Source: Bradyrhizobium guangxiense (GTDB lineage Bacteria; Pseudomonadota; Alphaproteobacteria; Rhizobiales; Xanthobacteraceae). From it: DNA of 64,000 nt. A program made the translations under genes and the position numbers. The notes beneath the pieces were generated by a model. The model did not search any database and was not told the DNA's origin. It was given only the letters and a program-made list of their open reading frames with translations. Within the stretch, counting starts at the first letter, position 1. Each line of letters begins with the position of its first letter. The stretch is from contig NZ_CP022219.1 of assembly GCF_004114915.1 (NCBI RefSeq), positions 4,184,501 through 4,248,500 of the forward strand, given 5' to 3'. This document shows, one piece after another, positions 19,323-28,086 of this stretch.

Positions 19323-20459
19323 TCACGGCGCCGTGGCCGCGTTGCCGAGAGCGGCCTCGGCTGCGATCTGCGCCAGGCGGAGCCGGCGCGCCCTCTTGCG
19401 ATCGCACCAGGCCTGGGTGAGGCGCTCGGTGGTCGCCTTGATGGAGGAGAGAAGACCGAACAGCGTCAGCATCGCGCCGAGCAGCCAGAGCGCCAGATCG
19501 AACGCGCCGCCGACGAGCAGCAGCGCGCCGCGGCCGAGCAGCTTCATGATCGCACGCGTCTTGCCGCCTTGCGCTTCCGCAAGCCGCGCCGCGCGCGCGA
19601 CATCCTTGGGGCCTTCAGCGATGCGCAACGTATCCATCGCCCCGCGCGTGCCGGTCTTCTCGGCGACGCGCGTGACGTCCTTGCCGAGCCGGACCAGCGC
19701 GCCGGCCTTCTCGGCCCGGAACGCAGCCTTGATCGCACTCACCGTCTCGCCGGGGCGGAGCACCGAACCCTTGGCGACTGCATTCTGAAGCATCGGCGTG
19801 TCGACGACCTCGCGCGCGGAGCGGCCGGCCCAGACCGCGAGCCCCTCGCCGAGCCGTCCGACTTTGCGCGCATCCTTGACCAGCGTCAGTCCGGCGCGCA
19901 CCGGCGCCGCGCCACCGACGGACACGTAGGTTGCCGCCGTCACCGCAAGGCCGGCGGCCGCAAGCGCGAGCACGAGGCGGTCGGTGTCCTCGCCCATGGC
20001 AAGGTGCTTGCCCTCGCGAACGACGTCCCTGATGTCGCCGATGACGAAGAGATCGCCGGCCACCGTTCCGGAGAGGCTCGCGACGTCGTCGGCAGTGCCG
20101 GTGACGAGACCGGTGGCAAATCGCTTGGCGAAATGGGAGGTGGAGCTCTCGGCCCTGACCGCATCGCTGACGCGGTTCAGGAGGTCGTCGGGCAGCGCGA
20201 TGTTACGGTCGCGCGCGAGCACGACGAAGCTATTGGCGAGATCGGCATCGCCAGCGGCGAGCGCGGCCTCGATATTGTCCTGAACCAGGCGATCGTTCTG
20301 GCGCAGCAGCTGATCGAGCTTGAGCTCGGACAGCACGGCCGGATCGTCCTGGGCGGCGAGGATCGCGCCGGCCTCACTTGCGTGCGGCGCGACCTGCGCG
20401 AGCATGAAGCTGCACGCCGCGATACCGGTCAATGCTGTGGTGATTCGCAGCCACTTCAT
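19323..20459 (-). CDS. Exported membrane protein, function unknown
   Basis: The 378-residue protein begins with a signal or anchor segment (ITTALTGIAACSFMLAQVAPHAS). Two hydrophobic stretches follow, near residues 170-190 (LVLALAAAGLAVTAATYVSVGG) and near 315-345 (LLGRGALLLVGGAFDLALWLLGAMLTLFGLL), and a basic C-terminus. The middle contains LARDRNIALPDDLLNRV. I recognise no domain. ATG 20459 is used; an upstream extension would be 30 residues of unlikely sequence. It probably sits in the inner membrane with a periplasmic middle region. Confidence 0.72.
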   Translation of the reverse strand: MKWLRITTALTGIAACSFMLAQVAPHASEAGAILAAQDDPAVLSELKLDQLLRQNDRLVQDNIEAALAAGDADLANSFVVLARDRNIALPDDLLNRVSDAVRAESSTSHFAKRFATGLVTGTADDVASLSGTVAGDLFVIGDIRDVVREGKHLAMGEDTDRLVLALAAAGLAVTAATYVSVGGAAPVRAGLTLVKDARKVGRLGEGLAVWAGRSAREVVDTPMLQNAVAKGSVLRPGETVSAIKAAFRAEKAGALVRLGKDVTRVAEKTGTRGAMDTLRIAEGPKDVARAARLAEAQGGKTRAIMKLLGRGALLLVGGAFDLALWLLGAMLTLFGLLSSIKATTERLTQAWCDRKRARRLRLAQIAAEAALGNAATAP

Positions 20460-20767
20460 GTGGTAAGCCTGGGCAGTCCTTGAAATCGATTGCGCCTGTT
20501 GATTCGTCTTTCGTCGCAATTTGCTCGTCCGAGAGACATAGTATGCCAAAATTGCGACACAACGTCCCCGACGAAAGAAGGGCTTCTCTCAGGCCGCAAG
20601 ATTGTGTCGAATTTGCATGAGCAAATGAGCATGGGGCAATTGCGGAGCTTTCGGTTCCGCTGGACTAGCAATCGCCTGCCCCCGCCAGTATGGTCCGCGG
20701 CGCCTTAAAGATGCCGCGTCAGTTCTTGATTGTGTCTGCCGCCATTGCCACTCCAGGATGAGTTACG

Positions 20768-21013
20768 ATGTCCGACCATGTCGTCCCGCACTTCCACAAC
20801 GATGCCGGTGTTCCCGTCATCGAGATCGGCTCGCAAGAGTTCATGTGCGTGGGCGCCAATCCTCCGTTCGACCATCCGCACGTGTTCCTCGACCTCGGCA
20901 ACGACAACGAGATCATCTGCCCCTATTGCTCGACGCTGTACCGCTTCGCGGCCGACCTGAAGGCAGGCGAAGCCCGCCCGCCGGAATGTGTCCTGAAGGA
21001 CAAGGTGGCCTGA
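20768..21013 (+). CDS. Small zinc-finger protein (zf-CHCC, NDUFS6-like)
   Basis: The 81-residue protein has Cys in FMCVGAN, His in FDHPHVFLD and a CPYC pair in NEIICPYCSTLYRF, the Cys-His-Cys-Cys zinc arrangement of the zf-CHCC family. The family includes the mitochondrial complex I subunit NDUFS6 and bacterial relatives of unknown role. The gene is 18 bases upstream of an FAD monooxygenase, so they are probably one transcript. Ribosome-binding signal is CCAGGATGAG before ATG 20768. Confidence 0.88.
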   Translation: MSDHVVPHFHNDAGVPVIEIGSQEFMCVGANPPFDHPHVFLDLGNDNEIICPYCSTLYRFAADLKAGEARPPECVLKDKVA

Positions 21014-21031
21014 CCGCATCCGTCGGTCAGG

Positions 21032-22234
21032 GTGGCGCTCTCCCGAACGATTGTCATCGCCGGTGCCGGTATCGGCGGACTGACGGCCGCGCTGGCGCTC
21101 GCGGCCCGCGGCTTCCGCATCGTCGTGCTGGAAAAGGCCGAGCGCCTCGAGGAAGTCGGCGCCGGCCTGCAGCTCTCCCCTAATGCGAGCCGCGTGCTGG
21201 TCGAACTCGGCCTCACCGAGCGCCTCAAGCTGCGCGCCGTCACCCCGGAAGCGGTCTCGATCATGAGCGCGCGGGCCGGCGGCGAGCTGCTGCGCATGCC
21301 GCTCGGCGAAGCCGCTTCCGCGCGAGCCGGCGCTCCCTATTGGGTGGTGCACCGCGCCGACCTGCAATCAGCGCTGGCCGGCGCCGTTGCCGATCATCCC
21401 GATATCGACCTGAAGCTAGGGGCAACCTTCGAAGACGTCGCGCCTCATGCCAAGGGCCTGACGGTGGTCCATCACAGCGGCACGATCCGCCGCAGCGATC
21501 TCGCCAGCGCGCTGATCGGTGCCGACGGCATCTGGTCGACGGTGCGCCAGCATCTGTTTCCCGAGGTTCAGCCGCGCTTCTCCGGGCTGATCGCCTGGCG
21601 CGGCACGCTCGATGCCACGCAGCTGCCGAAGGATTTCACCGGGCGCCGGGTGCAGCTCTGGATGGGCCCGAACGCCCATCTGGTCGCCTACCCCATCGCC
21701 GGCGGACGCCAGATCAACGTGGTGGCGGTGCTGCCGGGCAGCTGGAACAGGCCGGGCTGGAGCACGCCAGGCGATCCGCGCGAGGTGATGGACGCCTTTG
21801 CCGGCCCGCGCTGGCCGCCGACGGCGCGGATGATGCTCGCCACGGTCGATCACTGGCGCAAATGGGCGCTGTTCGGCGTGCCCGACGGCTGCCCCTGGAG
21901 CAAGGGCCCGGTCGGGCTGCTCGGCGATGCCGTGCATGCGATGCTGCCGTTCGCGGCCCAGGGCGCCGGCATGGCAATCGAGGATGCCGCGGTGCTCGCC
22001 CGTCACCTGAGCCTCGAGGCCGCCGAGAGCACCGCGGGCATCACTGCGGCGCTGACGCAGTACGGCCGTGCGCGCCAGGCGCGGGTGCGCCGGGTGCAGC
22101 GGACCGCGCGGCAGCAGGGCCGCATCTATCATTTCAGCGGGCTGCTGGCGACCGCGCGCGACCTTGCGATCCGCACGCTCGGCCCGGACCGGATGCTGGC
22201 GCGGCAGGACTGGATCTACGGCTGGCGGCCCTGA
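21032..22234 (+). CDS. FAD-dependent monooxygenase (UbiH/salicylate hydroxylase type)
   Basis: The 400-residue flavoprotein has an N-terminal dinucleotide fold IAGAGIGGLTAALALAARG with an acidic end VVLEKAE, the DG motif LIGADGIWSTVRQ, and the GD motif GLLGDAVHAMLPFAAQGAGMAIEDA that contacts FAD. It belongs to the class A aromatic hydroxylases. GTG 21032 is the start. The upstream zinc-finger gene ends 18 bases earlier, so the two likely act together. Whether the substrate is a quinone precursor or an exogenous aromatic compound cannot be read from the sequence. Confidence 0.9.
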   Translation: MALSRTIVIAGAGIGGLTAALALAARGFRIVVLEKAERLEEVGAGLQLSPNASRVLVELGLTERLKLRAVTPEAVSIMSARAGGELLRMPLGEAASARAGAPYWVVHRADLQSALAGAVADHPDIDLKLGATFEDVAPHAKGLTVVHHSGTIRRSDLASALIGADGIWSTVRQHLFPEVQPRFSGLIAWRGTLDATQLPKDFTGRRVQLWMGPNAHLVAYPIAGGRQINVVAVLPGSWNRPGWSTPGDPREVMDAFAGPRWPPTARMMLATVDHWRKWALFGVPDGCPWSKGPVGLLGDAVHAMLPFAAQGAGMAIEDAAVLARHLSLEAAESTAGITAALTQYGRARQARVRRVQRTARQQGRIYHFSGLLATARDLAIRTLGPDRMLARQDWIYGWRP

Positions 22235-22259
22235 CGCGAAGCGCCGCCGACGCGGCGCG

Positions 22260-22682
22260 TCAGCGGGTCGCTCTGCCGGCTTTGGACGCGGGCTTGGCAG
22301 AGGCCGCGGGCGACAACGAGGTCGCAGGCGGAATCACCTCAGGCGTCTCCCGGCACCTGTTGCGGCGCCAGGCGTCCTCGGCCAATTGGGCCTGCCCGCG
22401 CACCGCGATGTAGTCGTTGCGATAAGCGAGCTCGGACACGACGGCGCCGCCAGCCCCGGTCTCGGCCTTGTCCATCAGCTTCTGCAACTCGTCAGTGCGC
22501 TTTGCGAGCTGCTTGCGTTCACCCTCGAGCTGCTTGCAGTCGTACAATTCGTATTTGGAGGGATCGGCAAAGGCCGGCGCCACGGTCTCGCTCATGCTGG
22601 CGCAGCCGGACAGCGCGGCGGCCGCAAGCAGCCCGAGGAGCGCACCAACGGCGCGCAGGGAAGAGGAAATCGAAGCAGCCAT
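22260..22682 (-). CDS. Lipoprotein, function unknown
   Basis: The 140-residue protein has a signal with lipobox LSGC (Cys27), so it should be lipid-anchored. The mature part is charged and helical, containing a Lys/Glu-rich stretch LYDCKQLEGERKQLAKRTDELQKLMDK that suggests a coiled coil, and ends with a low-complexity Ala/Ser/Lys tail. It converges with the monooxygenase gene. No partner is visible. Confidence 0.75.
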   Translation of the reverse strand: MAASISSSLRAVGALLGLLAAAALSGCASMSETVAPAFADPSKYELYDCKQLEGERKQLAKRTDELQKLMDKAETGAGGAVVSELAYRNDYIAVRGQAQLAEDAWRRNRCRETPEVIPPATSLSPAASAKPASKAGRATR

Positions 22683-23043
22683 GCCGGATGAATAGTCCCC
22701 GTGAATTGAGAATGCCTAAAGCAACACCAGATGTCCGGATTGAGGCTTGGCCTGTGCGCCCGGCTCGCTCAAGGCACCACCGTCCCCGGCGACGCAACGC
22801 GCCATTCCAGACGGCCGTAGATGGACTTAAGTGCTTGATCTCGTTGGATCAAGCCGGCATGGCGAAATGAGTGGACGCAAAGGAGTCGAATTCCCTGATG
22901 GGCGTCATTGGCTCTGGGATTGCAGCGGCGCCCGTCAATCGATGGCCTTCGATCGATTGCCTTCGCGGGCCTTGGACGTTTCGACGGGACGAGCTGCTTC
23001 GAGGCGATGCTGCTCAAGCCGTTGCGACGCAACTGTATTCCCT
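22683..23043. other. Intergenic region without a recognisable gene
   Basis: About 360 bases before the tRNA promoter contain no convincing frame. One inverted repeat, CAATCGAT (22936-22943) and ATCGATTG (22952-22959) around an 8-base loop, is the only structure I noticed. Confidence 0.45.
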
Positions 23044-23071
23044 TTGCCTCAGGCGATCTGCGCCGTATAGA
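23044..23071 (+). promoter_or_regulatory. Probable promoter of the tRNA gene
   Basis: TTGCCT (23044-23049), a 16-base spacer and TATAGA (23066-23071) resemble a housekeeping sigma promoter. The -10 ends nine bases before the mature 5' end at 23081. Confidence 0.45.
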
Positions 23072-23080
23072 TGGGCTGAT

Positions 23081-23376
23081 GCGGGCGTGGCGGAATTGGT
23101 AGACGCATCGGACTTAAGCCATTGAGTGCCCTGGGGGAAACTCCAGGAGCAGAACTGCTCAAAGTCGGGGAAACCTTCACTGGCAATCCCGAGCCAAGCC
23201 CCCTCCCGGGGGAAGGTGTAGAGACTAGACGGGCAGCACCTACAGCGGGCAAAACGCCAGGGTGAAGGGATAGTCCAGACCACGAACGCCGGATGGGCGG
23301 CGGCGAAAGCCGAAGTGGTACGAAAATCCGTGGGGCCGCAAGGCCTGTGCCGGTTCGAGTCCGGCCGCCCGCACCA
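23081..23376 (+). tRNA. tRNA-Leu (UAA) interrupted by a group I intron
   Basis: The exons are 23081-23115 and 23323-23376. The acceptor stem GCGGGCG pairs with CGCCCGC, CCA is encoded, the T-arm reads CCGGTTCGAGTCCGG, and the variable arm is long, as in leucine tRNAs. Joining the exons gives an anticodon loop CTTAAAA with anticodon UAA. The intron lies between U34 and A35, the same site as the cyanobacterial and plastid tRNA-Leu introns. Stem position 27-43 is a T-T mismatch. Intron evidence is under the next entry. Confidence 0.9.
23116..23322 (+). other. Group I self-splicing intron (subgroup IC3-like) in tRNA-Leu(UAA)
   Basis: The 207-base insertion has the conserved group I elements in order. 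Q reads AATCCCGAGCC (23185-23195). R is GGTGTAGAGACTAGA (23215-23229). S is AAGGGATAGTCC (ending 23276). P7 forms between GACTA (23223-23227) and TAGTC (23271-23275). The 5' exon ends in T and can pair with GAGT in the intron, giving the U-G pair at the 5' splice site, and the intron ends in G (23322). No endonuclease gene fits in it. Confidence 0.88.
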
Positions 23377-23406: not shown

Positions 23407-24456
23407 TCACTCGATCCCTGTGGGGAGCACGGTCGCTTCTCGTCTGCGTACGTCCGGAGTTGATTGGCTCCGGCGCATCCGGCTCAGCCCTCTTCCCCAA
23501 GAGAGGATCGGCGCTTCGATGACGATGTGCAAGACAGTGGCAAGACCGATGGAGAGCAGGATGCAAGCGATGATTGTCCCGACGGTCGACAGCAGCCACG
23601 GCCCGTCAAAATTGGCGATCCATTTCAACAACGGGCAGTGAACGATGTACAGCGAGTACGAAATCTTGCCGAGCCATTGCAAGACCGGCGAGAAGGATCG
23701 TCCTTCGATCTCGGCAGACACCACCGCATGGATGAGCAATCCCGCGCCAAGGCCATAGGTCGGTACGCGGGCGAACAGTGCATCGGTCGCTCCGTGCACG
23801 AAGATCCAGTACCAGCCGGCAAAGAACAGGCCTGCCGAACAGGCTATGATGCGAGGCGAAAAGCGCAATCCGCGATTTGTCAGGAGATAGGCGATGCCAA
23901 CGCCTGCGCCGAATTCCAGCACCAGCGGGTGGGAGTAGATGCCGAGCTGAATTTGGAAGAAGGCAGCGACGATGACCAGGCCGAACCACGCGAAGAGGAT
24001 CTCGAATAGCCGGTTCGGCTTAATCGCGAAGATGATCGCGACCACGGCATAGAAGTGCAGCTCGAAAGCCAGTGACCATGCCGGCCCGATATACCAGTTC
24101 GGGTATGTCCATGCGAAGATCGTTCCGGCGTCGAGTTGCGGACGTTCCCCCGGCGCCATTGCAATCCAGGAGGAACTGATGAACGCCGCCAGCAACGCGA
24201 GCCAATAGACCGGATAAATTCGGATGGCGCGTCTGAAAGCAAAGTTCCACGCGTTGTGTTGTGCCGCGGCCGTCGTTGTGATGATGAAGCCCGAGATAAC
24301 GAAGAAGATGTCAACGCCGCTCGAAAGAATGGTCAGTGCGCCTTCGGCAAGCTCCGGGCCGACCATGTCGGGTCGCACACTGACTGCATGACCGCAGACC
24401 ACCGACAGCGCGGCAATGCCGCGCATCGCCTGCACGCCAGCGAACACTTGCGGCAT
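23407..24456 (-). CDS. Acyltransferase family 3 membrane protein (OafA/YrhL type)
   Basis: The 349-residue protein begins with GVQAMRGIAALSVVCGHA, with the first catalytic His of the family, then FFVISGFIITT and about ten membrane helices. The family moves acyl groups such as acetyl or succinyl onto cell-surface polysaccharides. ATG 24456 gives the normal family N-terminus, with GAGG upstream; an ATG at 24564 would add 36 unlikely residues. It lies 31 bases beyond the tRNA-Leu and is followed upstream by AT-richer DNA, suggesting an acquired surface-modification gene. The acceptor is unknown. Confidence 0.88.
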   Translation of the reverse strand: MPQVFAGVQAMRGIAALSVVCGHAVSVRPDMVGPELAEGALTILSSGVDIFFVISGFIITTTAAAQHNAWNFAFRRAIRIYPVYWLALLAAFISSSWIAMAPGERPQLDAGTIFAWTYPNWYIGPAWSLAFELHFYAVVAIIFAIKPNRLFEILFAWFGLVIVAAFFQIQLGIYSHPLVLEFGAGVGIAYLLTNRGLRFSPRIIACSAGLFFAGWYWIFVHGATDALFARVPTYGLGAGLLIHAVVSAEIEGRSFSPVLQWLGKISYSLYIVHCPLLKWIANFDGPWLLSTVGTIIACILLSIGLATVLHIVIEAPILSWGRGLSRMRRSQSTPDVRRREATVLPTGIE

Positions 24457-25068
24457 CGGAGGAGCCTCGCACCTGACCGAACCACCGCAGCAGGTCTCGC
24501 CTCGTCGCAGGACTTCTGCCGCTACGAGGGACTGGGGACGTTGCATTGGGTGATACCGCCCCATTTGACACTGAAATCGGTCAGCACAAGCCCGACGCCG
24601 GACATTGCGGCGAGCAGCGTGATAGGCCCCCGGTTCAACCGTAGTGGCGACAGTGACGCGTCAAACTGCGGCGCTTCGAGCGACTGAGAAGGAGGCGAAA
24701 GCGCCTCATCGCTTTCTCTTGTCATTGGGCATTCTCGTATTCCAGGAGAATGTTTCTGGCAGAAGAGCTCTTAAAAGAATCACAACTCCTAGGTGTTATT
24801 TTTTGTGAAAACATCCATTCCGATCTATCTCGGGAAATCTTGGCAGGACAATCTGGCAATGCAGGCCCATGCTTGCATTTGATCAGGCCTTACTGGAATC
24901 TGCAGGACGGCTTCCCCATCCGCCTGTCGGCAAAACGCCGCCGGCGGAGCGTGCGGGCGTTTTCCGGACGAGGCGAGGCCGAAGCCGGCTCCACTTGGAA
25001 TGAAGTCTGCTCAGAGGCATGTCTGCGTCGGCCTCGCCATCGAAGCCGCGGACTGTTTCCTGGTCGGA
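24457..25068. other. AT-richer intergenic stretch
   Basis: This 612-base stretch has no convincing gene. Around 24750-24860 base composition drops clearly below the neighbouring DNA, with runs such as TTATTTTTTG. A minus-strand frame at 24522-24725 (67 residues, one hydrophobic segment) could be a fragment of a membrane protein, but I give it little weight. Confidence 0.45.
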
Positions 25069-26516: not shown

Positions 26517-26631
26517 TTGCGGCCACAGCCCACTTCACCAATTCTTGTCGCCTGCCAGCCATCCCGAAACATGGGTTGTGCAACGCAGCATGGACGTTGG
26601 ATAAAGCCGCTCGATTTCAGGGGTGAGCTGC

Positions 26632-27882
26632 TTGTCCGACGTCAATGCCGATTCCTGGGTGTCCTCCGGACACCGTCCCATGGGTTTTCCAGAATTCGTC
26701 ATCGTGATCGCGTCCATCATGGCGCTGAATCCGCTTGCGATGGACATGATGCTGCCGGCGCTGCCCAACATCGGCACCGCCTTCAAGATCCCCGTCGCCA
26801 ACCATCTCCAGCTGGTGCTGTCGACCTTCCTGATCGGCTTCGGCGCCGGCCAGTTCGTGATGGGCCCGCTGTCGGACCGCTTCGGCCGCCGGCCGGTGCT
26901 GCTCGGCGGCATGGCGGTCTACGCGGTGGCGAGCGTGCTGGCGGTCGCTGCGCCCTCGTTCGAGACGCTGCTGCTGGCGCGCGCGCTGCAGGGGCTCGGC
27001 ACCTCGGCGACGCGCGTGATCGCGACCTCGATCGTGCGCGACTGCTATGTCGGCCGCCGCATGGCGAGCGTGATGTCGCTCGCCATGATGGTGTTCATCG
27101 CGGTGCCCGTGATCGCGCCCTCGTTCGGCCAAGCGGTGTTGCTGGTGACGGCGTGGCGCGGCATCTTCGTGGTGTTGATGCTGTATGGCCTGCTCGCGCT
27201 CGCATGGTGCGTGCTCCGGCTGCCTGAAACGCGGCCCGAGTCCGAGCGCCGGTCGCTGGCGCCCGCCGACGTGCTCTCGGCGTTCCGGCAGACCGTGACC
27301 CATCGCCAGACCATCGGCTATGCGACGGCGGCCGGCAGCGTCATCGGCGCGCTGTTCGCCTATGTCTTCTGCGCCCAGCAGGTCTTCACCGGCATCTATC
27401 ACCTCGGCCACTACTTCCCGCTCGCTTTCGCGGCGATTGCGGCAGGCACGGCCATCGCCGGCTTCCTCAATGCGCGGCTGGTCGGACGGCTCGGCATGCG
27501 CGTGATCTCGCACGGGGCGCTGACGCTCTACACGGCCGTGGCCGCCGTGATGCTGCTGACGGAAAGCCTCGGCATGCTGCCGCTGGCCCTGTTCATGGTG
27601 CTGTCCGCGCTGATGATGTTCTCGTTCGGCATGATGGTCGCCAACTTCACCGCGCTCGCCATGGAGCCGCAGGGCCACATCGCGGGCACCGCCTCCTCGC
27701 TCTACGGCTCGATCACGACGTTGATCGGAATCGTGGTCGGCATGGCGATCGGCCAGAGCTTCGACGGCACGCTGCTGCCGTTCTCGGCCGGCTTCTTCCT
27801 GTCGACGCTCGCTGCGCTCGCCATCGTGCTGGTGGTGGAGAAGGGACGGCTGTTAAAGCCGCATCATCGCCCGCTCGATTGA
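26632..27882 (+). CDS. MFS exporter, Bcr/CflA drug-resistance type
   Basis: The 416-residue protein has twelve predicted membrane helices. FVMGPLSDRFGRRPVLLGGM (about residue 65) is the loop-2-3 signature and ALNPLAMDMMLPALPNIG matches Bcr/CflA proteins. They export toxic compounds or metabolites by proton antiport. TTG 26632 is preferred, with AGGGG eight bases upstream; a GTG at 26623 would add three residues. It is 115 bases downstream of the TetR gene in the same direction, so co-regulation is possible but not shown. Confidence 0.87.
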   Translation: MSDVNADSWVSSGHRPMGFPEFVIVIASIMALNPLAMDMMLPALPNIGTAFKIPVANHLQLVLSTFLIGFGAGQFVMGPLSDRFGRRPVLLGGMAVYAVASVLAVAAPSFETLLLARALQGLGTSATRVIATSIVRDCYVGRRMASVMSLAMMVFIAVPVIAPSFGQAVLLVTAWRGIFVVLMLYGLLALAWCVLRLPETRPESERRSLAPADVLSAFRQTVTHRQTIGYATAAGSVIGALFAYVFCAQQVFTGIYHLGHYFPLAFAAIAAGTAIAGFLNARLVGRLGMRVISHGALTLYTAVAAVMLLTESLGMLPLALFMVLSALMMFSFGMMVANFTALAMEPQGHIAGTASSLYGSITTLIGIVVGMAIGQSFDGTLLPFSAGFFLSTLAALAIVLVVEKGRLLKPHHRPLD

Positions 27883-27936
27883 GGAACCTCCCGGCGGCCT
27901 CGATGTTGTCCTGCAGCAATTGGAAAGGCCGCTGCG

Positions 27937-28077
27937 ATGGAACTGGAACACCGCGAAGATCACGCTGAGGTCGAACCGCAGACGACGGAGCGCTGTGAGC
28001 CGGGCACCGGACCGGCCGCGTTGACGACGCCTTTTGCCAGCGAGGGCCTCGAACAGTTGCGTGACAGCCACTGCTGA
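27937..28077 (+). CDS. Possible 46-residue small protein
   Basis: ATG 27937 is preceded by GGAAAGG seven bases upstream and opens a frame MELEHREDHAEVEPQ... ending at TGA 28075-28077. It is acidic at the start and ends in LRDSHC. There is no recognised family, so coding is only suggested by the ribosome-binding site and by the acidic composition. Confidence 0.3.
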   Translation: MELEHREDHAEVEPQTTERCEPGTGPAALTTPFASEGLEQLRDSHC

Positions 28078-28086
28078 GCGCGACGT

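Follow-up and report, generated by a model that had tools for sequence, protein, structure and literature searches.

The tRNA-Leu(UAA) gene of cyanobacteria and plastids is interrupted by a group I intron between U34 and A35, and in the Proteobacteria group I introns are known from tRNA-Arg(CCU) of Agrobacterium and tRNA-Ile(CAU) of Azoarcus; we know of no link of the latter two to an integrative element. Here we analyzed a stretch of 64,000 nucleotides (nt) of the Bradyrhizobium guangxiense genome (contig NZ_CP022219.1, positions 4,184,501 to 4,248,500; in the following the window), in which an intron-bearing tRNA-Leu(UAA) gene lies at 23081..23376 of the forward strand. We propose, with a probability of roughly 0.75, that an integrative element brought this gene as its rescue tRNA and that the intron masks the attachment core.

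Several described systems come close to this arrangement. According to the accessible text of Guerrero-Bustamante and Hatfull (2024, PMC10865867), actinobacteriophages with tRNA-dependent lysogeny break a host tRNA gene and bring their own copy, phage Gaia using tRNA-Leu-CAA. The elements found in relatives of our strain likewise break the host tRNA gene and supply a putative rescue gene of the same isotype, but here the rescue gene holds a group I intron and the integrase is absent from phage records. In the accessible text of that paper the word intron occurs only in one reference title, and masking of the rescue copy was not found. Integrated elements replacing a tRNA in rhizobia are also represented by the Sinorhizobium meliloti prophages, which substitute a host tRNA as far as the portions available tell (PMC11476347, PMC12429752); the word intron is absent from the main texts of both papers. 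Sugahara 2012, as cited in PMC8371274, tied tRNA introns to the integration of mobile elements into tRNA genes. In the account given there the attP sites of mobile genetic elements bring introns into archaeal tRNA genes by recombination, whereas here the core is interrupted by an intron that belongs to a rescue gene of its own.

With the cyanobacterial and plastid intron the window shares the tRNA, the insertion point and the kind of core; there, however, the gene is treated as a resident one, while we consider it to be element-borne here. The Agrobacterium and Azoarcus introns are alike in being small group I introns of the anticodon loop and differ in the tRNA. That tRNA group I introns occur in alpha- and betaproteobacteria is stated in the available part of PMC4033280. 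Rescue tRNAs as such are already known from phages, but our searches of the open-access literature found neither a group I intron in an element-borne rescue copy nor an intron masking a rescue tRNA.

The intron-bearing gene

The 5′ exon (23081..23115, forward strand, as are all parts of this gene) ends with U34 and is followed by an intron of 207 nt with a terminal G (23116..23322) and by the 3′ exon including CCA (23323..23376). When the exons are joined, which is how the insertion point between U34 and A35 was deduced, ARAGORN recognizes a tRNA-Leu(taa) of 89 nt; the predicted exon junction after splicing is CGGACTT/AAAATCCG. A covariance search returned RF00028 for positions 23106-23291 with 44.2 bits (E 6.9e-10, reported under an E-value threshold, the gathering score of 50 not being reached). 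This is the single match at E 0.001 in the genome of 8.2 Mb (two contigs).

We examined covariation in a set of 47 introns with a mutual identity below 90%. The helix P3 (23155..23160 with 23231-23236) is paired in 99.3% of the cells, P4 (23165..23169 with 23188-23192) and P7 (23223..23227 with 23271-23275) in 99.6% each, P9 in 100% and P2a in 97.2%; for P2, P6, P8, and P9.0 the values are 71–88%, and controls in which the partner was slid by 1–3 columns gave 1–79%. Double changes were seen in 26 of 41 tested pairs, among them four of six in P3 and one of five each in P4 and P7. The terminal G is present in 69 of the 71 relatives that could be parsed (6 of 77 modules could not). A chance resemblance to a group I intron in tRNA-Leu(UAA) is thereby ruled out. 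An earlier note on this DNA, made from the letters alone, had described just this, namely a 207-nt group I intron with a P7 pairing and a final G between U34 and A35 of a tRNA with UAA anticodon in an alphaproteobacterium, and the description holds, the host belonging to the genus Bradyrhizobium. The covariance-model search which it had suggested as a check gave a significant match, yet one under the gathering score.

Because of this score default tools display neither the tRNA nor the intron. ARAGORN run without its intron option found no tRNA at 23081-23376, and with this option it detected the gene there with the intron misplaced; Rfam at the gathering threshold did not report the intron. 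The genome would therefore seem to be without tRNA-Leu(UAA). In fact no tRNA-Leu(UAA) other than the intron-bearing copy was found in this genome: a pattern search over both contigs gave one match, and no second gene was found among 45 typed RF00005 matches, which contain tRNA-Leu with caa, cag, gag, and tag once each and none with taa. The UUA codon is rare yet used, with 1 of 381 leucine codons in ten genes of the window. A promoter, TTTGCC-17 nt-TATAGA, is predicted from the sequence upstream of the rescue tRNA (23043..23071, forward strand), and its TATAGA box is kept in all eight aligned spacers.

Replacement of the resident gene

In the relatives G009 and G008 the tRNA-Leu(UAA) gene is intronless. 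Positions 19335-22896 of the window align with both at 85–86%; this stretch comprises a lipoprotein gene (22260..22682, reverse strand), which is the left native flank outside the element, and ends with what is left of the native intronless tRNA-Leu(UAA), a decayed 5′ half (22853..22896, forward strand, 77% identity to native nt 1-44) at the place of the left attachment site attL. The intron-bearing gene starts 185 bp past this stub. It is preceded by a spacer of about 70 bp (23009..23080, forward strand) which by sequence identity comes from the element and separates the integrase from the rescue tRNA in relatives; spacer and tRNA together are 89–95% identical to those of G024, G256, G027, G021, and G173. 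On the other side, a gene of the major facilitator superfamily (MFS) immediately follows the intronless tRNA of G009, and window positions 26556-28081 align there, with the MFS gene of the window (26623..27882, forward strand) being the right native flank outside the element. An acyltransferase gene in the inserted stretch (23407..24564, reverse strand; Acyl_transf_3 E 1.2e-30) is missing between tRNA and MFS gene in G009 and is possible cargo.

The alignments indicate that the whole intron-bearing tRNA gene took the place of the resident gene, which was lost, and that the intron did not enter the resident gene. The window is a domesticated relic which has lost its integrase. That the intron entered a resident tRNA-Leu(UAA) gene through homing or reverse splicing would be in line with eight other Bradyrhizobium genomes (G020, G038, G039, G044, G057, G216, G282, and G200), in which the native locus holds a longer intron, has native-like exons, and lacks an integrase. 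The clade of this longer-intron group (90/97, not starred), however, includes G264, a copy behind an integrase. For the window we reject this route because the native stub persists upstream of the new gene, which moreover arrived with a spacer of the element type; overall, we regard it as very improbable. The context of an element-borne replacement gene had been missed by the earlier note, which took the intron as evidence on intron age or lateral spread; the lateral spread, taken up below, is borne out by the tree within the Proteobacteria.

The element in related genomes

In G017 both ends of the element can be read. The order is native nt 1-40, an integrase of 440 amino acids, the intron-bearing tRNA-Leu(UAA), cargo, and native nt 32-89. 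The same left end is present in G024, G264, G159, and G256, and in these five Bradyrhizobium loci the native 5′ half is thus followed by the integrase and the intron-bearing tRNA. Joining the host flanks gave an intact tRNA-Leu(taa) in four of four cases (G017, G256, G159, and the Caulobacter locus L232). With both ends on one contig the element spans 14.6 kb in G017, 69.3 kb in G159, and 7.3 kb in L232. The host tRNA is restored neither at the five left nor at the three right junctions that were read, in keeping with native genes that are split by the element. Repeats of the sequence TTACACA or TTAGCACA flank the attachment core and are probably the arm sites of the integrase. Among 36 Bradyrhizobium loci examined, of which the window is one, 15 have an integrase, intact or decayed, on the 5′ side of the intron-bearing tRNA. 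The integrase of L071 matches PF00589 with E 2.6e-4, which is under the curated cut-off, and that of L066 has no Pfam match at E 0.001; a relative with 57% identity is annotated as tyrosine-type recombinase/integrase.

These elements carry defence-type genes. We compared ten large cargo proteins with PADLOC, these being picked rather than random (seven of the 56 open reading frames listed for 14 loci and three from L066 and L071), and obtained two Pycsar-type cyclases, two E1-E2 proteins, two IetS proteases, a GajA-like protein, a type IIG restriction enzyme, a PDC-S73 candidate, and one weak match. A phage origin of the element was rejected: a search of 50,697 phage records at E 1e-20 gave no match to the integrase, and two relatives were found in viral contigs.

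Two further copies were seen beside integrases or their remnants. In G173, where the native locus (L130) is already intron-bearing, there is a second intron-bearing copy with an integrase (L129:5432-7031) and only a partial core upstream of the integrase; this fits the use of a secondary site once the normal target was gone. On a plasmid of G010 (contig C2, L072:9108-9368) a copy next to an integrase remnant matches only from query position 36. This copy, which is common to five B. elkanii and B. ottawaense plasmids, is without the 5′ exon and probably a dead rescue gene.

We then surveyed named genomes with the integrase and examined the best 80 of 212 relatives. By record title most of these belong to Alphaproteobacteria or Acidobacteriota, and a small number are gammaproteobacterial, Phycisphaerae, or other bins; metagenome bins, whose names may be wrong, make up many of the records. 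A tRNA-Leu within 450 bp behind the integrase, of the same isotype as the target, was present in 57 of the 80 loci, intron-bearing in 45 and intronless in 12, and a tRNA-Leu 5′ half was present 5′ of the integrase in 62. Where both could be parsed by script, the anticodon of the 5′ half equals that of the rescue gene in 41 of 43 loci. One of the two others, L229, is a matter of parsing, as the script read UAA and the 3′ end fits a CAA intron one base earlier. Among distant integrase relatives, L137, L150, and L152 sit at tRNA-Met and L149 apparently at tRNA-Lys; each of these brings the 3′ half of the tRNA, the usual layout for restoring it, and only L137 has a complete tRNA.

Attachment core and intron

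From these data the following course of events can be proposed. The anticodon loop of tRNA-Leu(UAA), 7 bp with the sequence CTTAAAA, would be the place where a tyrosine integrase recombines the element, thereby splitting the gene, which the element leaves unrestored. Just behind the integrase the element carries a complete tRNA-Leu(UAA) with its own predicted promoter. With identical letters, such a rescue copy would itself be a target of the integrase. With a group I intron within the anticodon loop of the rescue copy the DNA would be devoid of the attachment core and the spliced RNA would have a normal anticodon. The window has lost its integrase, its native gene has decayed to the 5′ stub, and the intron-bearing copy remains. 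The split native genes, the place of the rescue gene, and the replacement and loss of the native gene of the window are read directly from the sequence; splicing, rescue, masking, and promoter function are predicted from sequence comparisons.

All 62 native 5′ halves of the survey have the sequence GA-YTYAAAA across stem and loop, the GA not being demanded by the search. After splicing in silico this core (GA, loop, and TC) is present in 37 of 37 parsed intron copies, whereas in the DNA it is split by the intron; 8 of the 45 intron copies were left out since the 5′ exon was unparsed or the 3′ exon cut off. The position of the 3′ exon was taken as the best pairing with the 5′ stem, so that TC counts as less independent evidence than GA. 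In contrast, 9 of the 12 intronless rescue copies deviate from the core in the stem beside the loop. These nine show three kinds of stem change, in each of which the pairing is kept. Where the 5′ half is also known, six of seven intronless copies are altered. The difference in intact cores between copies with and without the intron has a Fisher p of 1.1e-7, for relatives which are not independent and without a correction for kinship. Since the spliced core is intact in every intron copy and altered in most of the intronless ones, we take the intron as a probable mask of the attachment site in the rescue gene.

Changed stems also occur in three phages of the published tRNA-dependent kind, Cheetobro, Mollymur, and LeBron, which lie outside the survey. 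In addition, the Gordonia phage Daredevil (NC_048021, L280:3880-4191) has an unannotated tRNA-Lys(UUU) gene with a group I intron of 238 nt between U34 and U35, located beside attP and integrase, and its spliced core is intact. In the text available to us this phage is described as carrying no tRNA gene itself (PMC10865867).

Could the intron be a neutral passenger of a rescue gene otherwise correctly identified, without any masking? Group I introns reside in tRNA-Leu(UAA) of cyanobacteria and plastids according to the accessible parts of PMC4476775 and PMC4033280, and the 12 element loci with an intronless rescue gene, three of them with an intact core, could be read in this way. The uneven distribution of the intact core (37/37 against 3/12), the three different stem changes by which the nine altered copies depart from it, and the occurrence of an intron after U34 in a phage with another tRNA and another integrase all argue against it, and we consider a mere passenger unlikely.

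The support for masking is indirect, and a number of observations weigh against masking by an element-borne intron. Three intronless rescue copies retain the core (L182, L186, and L195), and so does one of the seven for which the 5′ half is known. In two of the five published phages, Snenia and Baudelaire, the inner core is unchanged and the only difference from attP lies one pair outward. Daredevil plaques are reported as clear in the portion of PMC10865867 available, so its intron-bearing tRNA may not work. In 23 of the 80 surveyed loci no rescue tRNA was found near the integrase. Contig ends cut L171 and L211, in L217 and L218 an intron-bearing tRNA-Leu lies further off, and L215, L224, and L227 are at Asn or Arg tRNAs whose 3′ half is restored as usual. 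Rescue tRNAs were likewise not found near the integrase in 13 Acidobacteriota loci which have a tRNA-Leu 5′ half. The locus L204 combines a 5′ half of the CAA type with a UAA rescue gene. In the window itself no match to the integrase was found, and neither was the native 3′ half or the right attachment site attR, which would mark the right end of the former element. As a separate observation, the anticodon of the 5′ half in the 13 Acidobacteriota loci (L177, L179-L181, L184, L189, L191, L192, L198, L201, L212, L219, and L223) is CAA, with L212 having UAA.

If the intron does mask the core, bacterial tRNA introns would gain a concrete job, in which a mobile element keeps its gene safe from its own recombinase. 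Integration of the tRNA-dependent kind would be widened from actinophages to elements of Alphaproteobacteria and Acidobacteriota without known phage relatives, and the window would exemplify a way in which a host becomes reliant on an intron-bearing tRNA of foreign origin. The origin of the tRNA-Leu intron would become testable by simple integrase and splicing assays. It is an unlikely extension that the bacterial anticodon-loop group I introns are largely relics of rescue genes of tRNA-targeting mobile elements, kept for hiding the attachment site, and that the cyanobacterial and plastid trnL(UAA) intron could descend from such a rescue gene fixed before the plastid arose.

Occurrence and spread

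The intron-bearing gene was matched in 51 of 265 Bradyrhizobium genomes at E 1e-18, some of the matches being partial, and an intact intronless gene in 123 at E 1e-26. Fourteen genomes are on both lists, and 37 of the 51 are without an intact native gene at E 1e-26, a threshold which divergent native genes escape, such as that of G010 with 84% identity. In a tree of the introns, from which G159a and G159b were omitted for runs of N, the window copy stands amid element-borne and native-locus copies, with G173int, G194, G303, and G256a nearest by path. Copies from Afipia elements join the clade of the window (98/93, starred branch), the Bradyrhizobium copy G256b clusters with other proteobacteria (98/89, starred branch), and the Acidobacteriota introns form one group (83/83). 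Since 31 of the 71 inner branches are open, with bootstrap unsettled, the deep order was not used. The tree supports lateral spread within the Proteobacteria; between phyla it is not shown. The insertion site, being that stated for cyanobacteria and plastids, could speak for an ancient intron inherited vertically in the alphaproteobacteria. The patchy occurrence (51 of 265 genomes against 123 with the intact intronless gene) and the grouping of Bradyrhizobium introns with those of other genera argue to the contrary and leave vertical descent with next to no credibility.

Of 385 genomes sampled from the class, 31 had an RF00028 match. The 29 loci examined have the 5′ exon of tRNA-Leu in 16 cases, including three called Phe by ARAGORN and scored as Leu from the 5′ exon, and tRNA-Arg(CCU) in 3. 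The view of the earlier note that the intron is a notable exception beside those of tRNA-Arg(CCU) does not stand up to these numbers. At four of the 16 tRNA-Leu loci the element integrase is just upstream. ARAGORN also placed group I introns of the class in tRNA-Arg(CCU), tRNA-Glu, and tRNA-Lys (L293-L321).

Intron-bearing tRNA-Leu(UAA) genes are also present on many clinical plasmids. The copy of pCTX-M3 (NC_004464 61823-62121; L125:8001-8299) is about 73.5% identical to the window and adjoins genes for an AAA-ATPase and aac(3)-IId. A 63-amino-acid open reading frame upstream of the plasmid copy was rejected as an integrase remnant, its similarity not being significant. Matches to the gene were found in 1280 of 72,556 plasmid records, 1266 of which cover at least 80% of the query; the nine with more than 80% identity are all from Bradyrhizobium. 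A plasmid segment of 700 bp is present over at least 80% of its length in 569 of 5,426 complete E. coli genomes. The single RefSeq record checked has no tRNA annotation for the plasmid copy. Finally, ARAGORN reports tRNA-Leu(UAA) introns of 205 and 700 nt in huge uncultured phages of 735 and 595 kb (L281:1495-1785 and L282:868-1654), and the 700-nt intron seems to hold an HNH-like reading frame.
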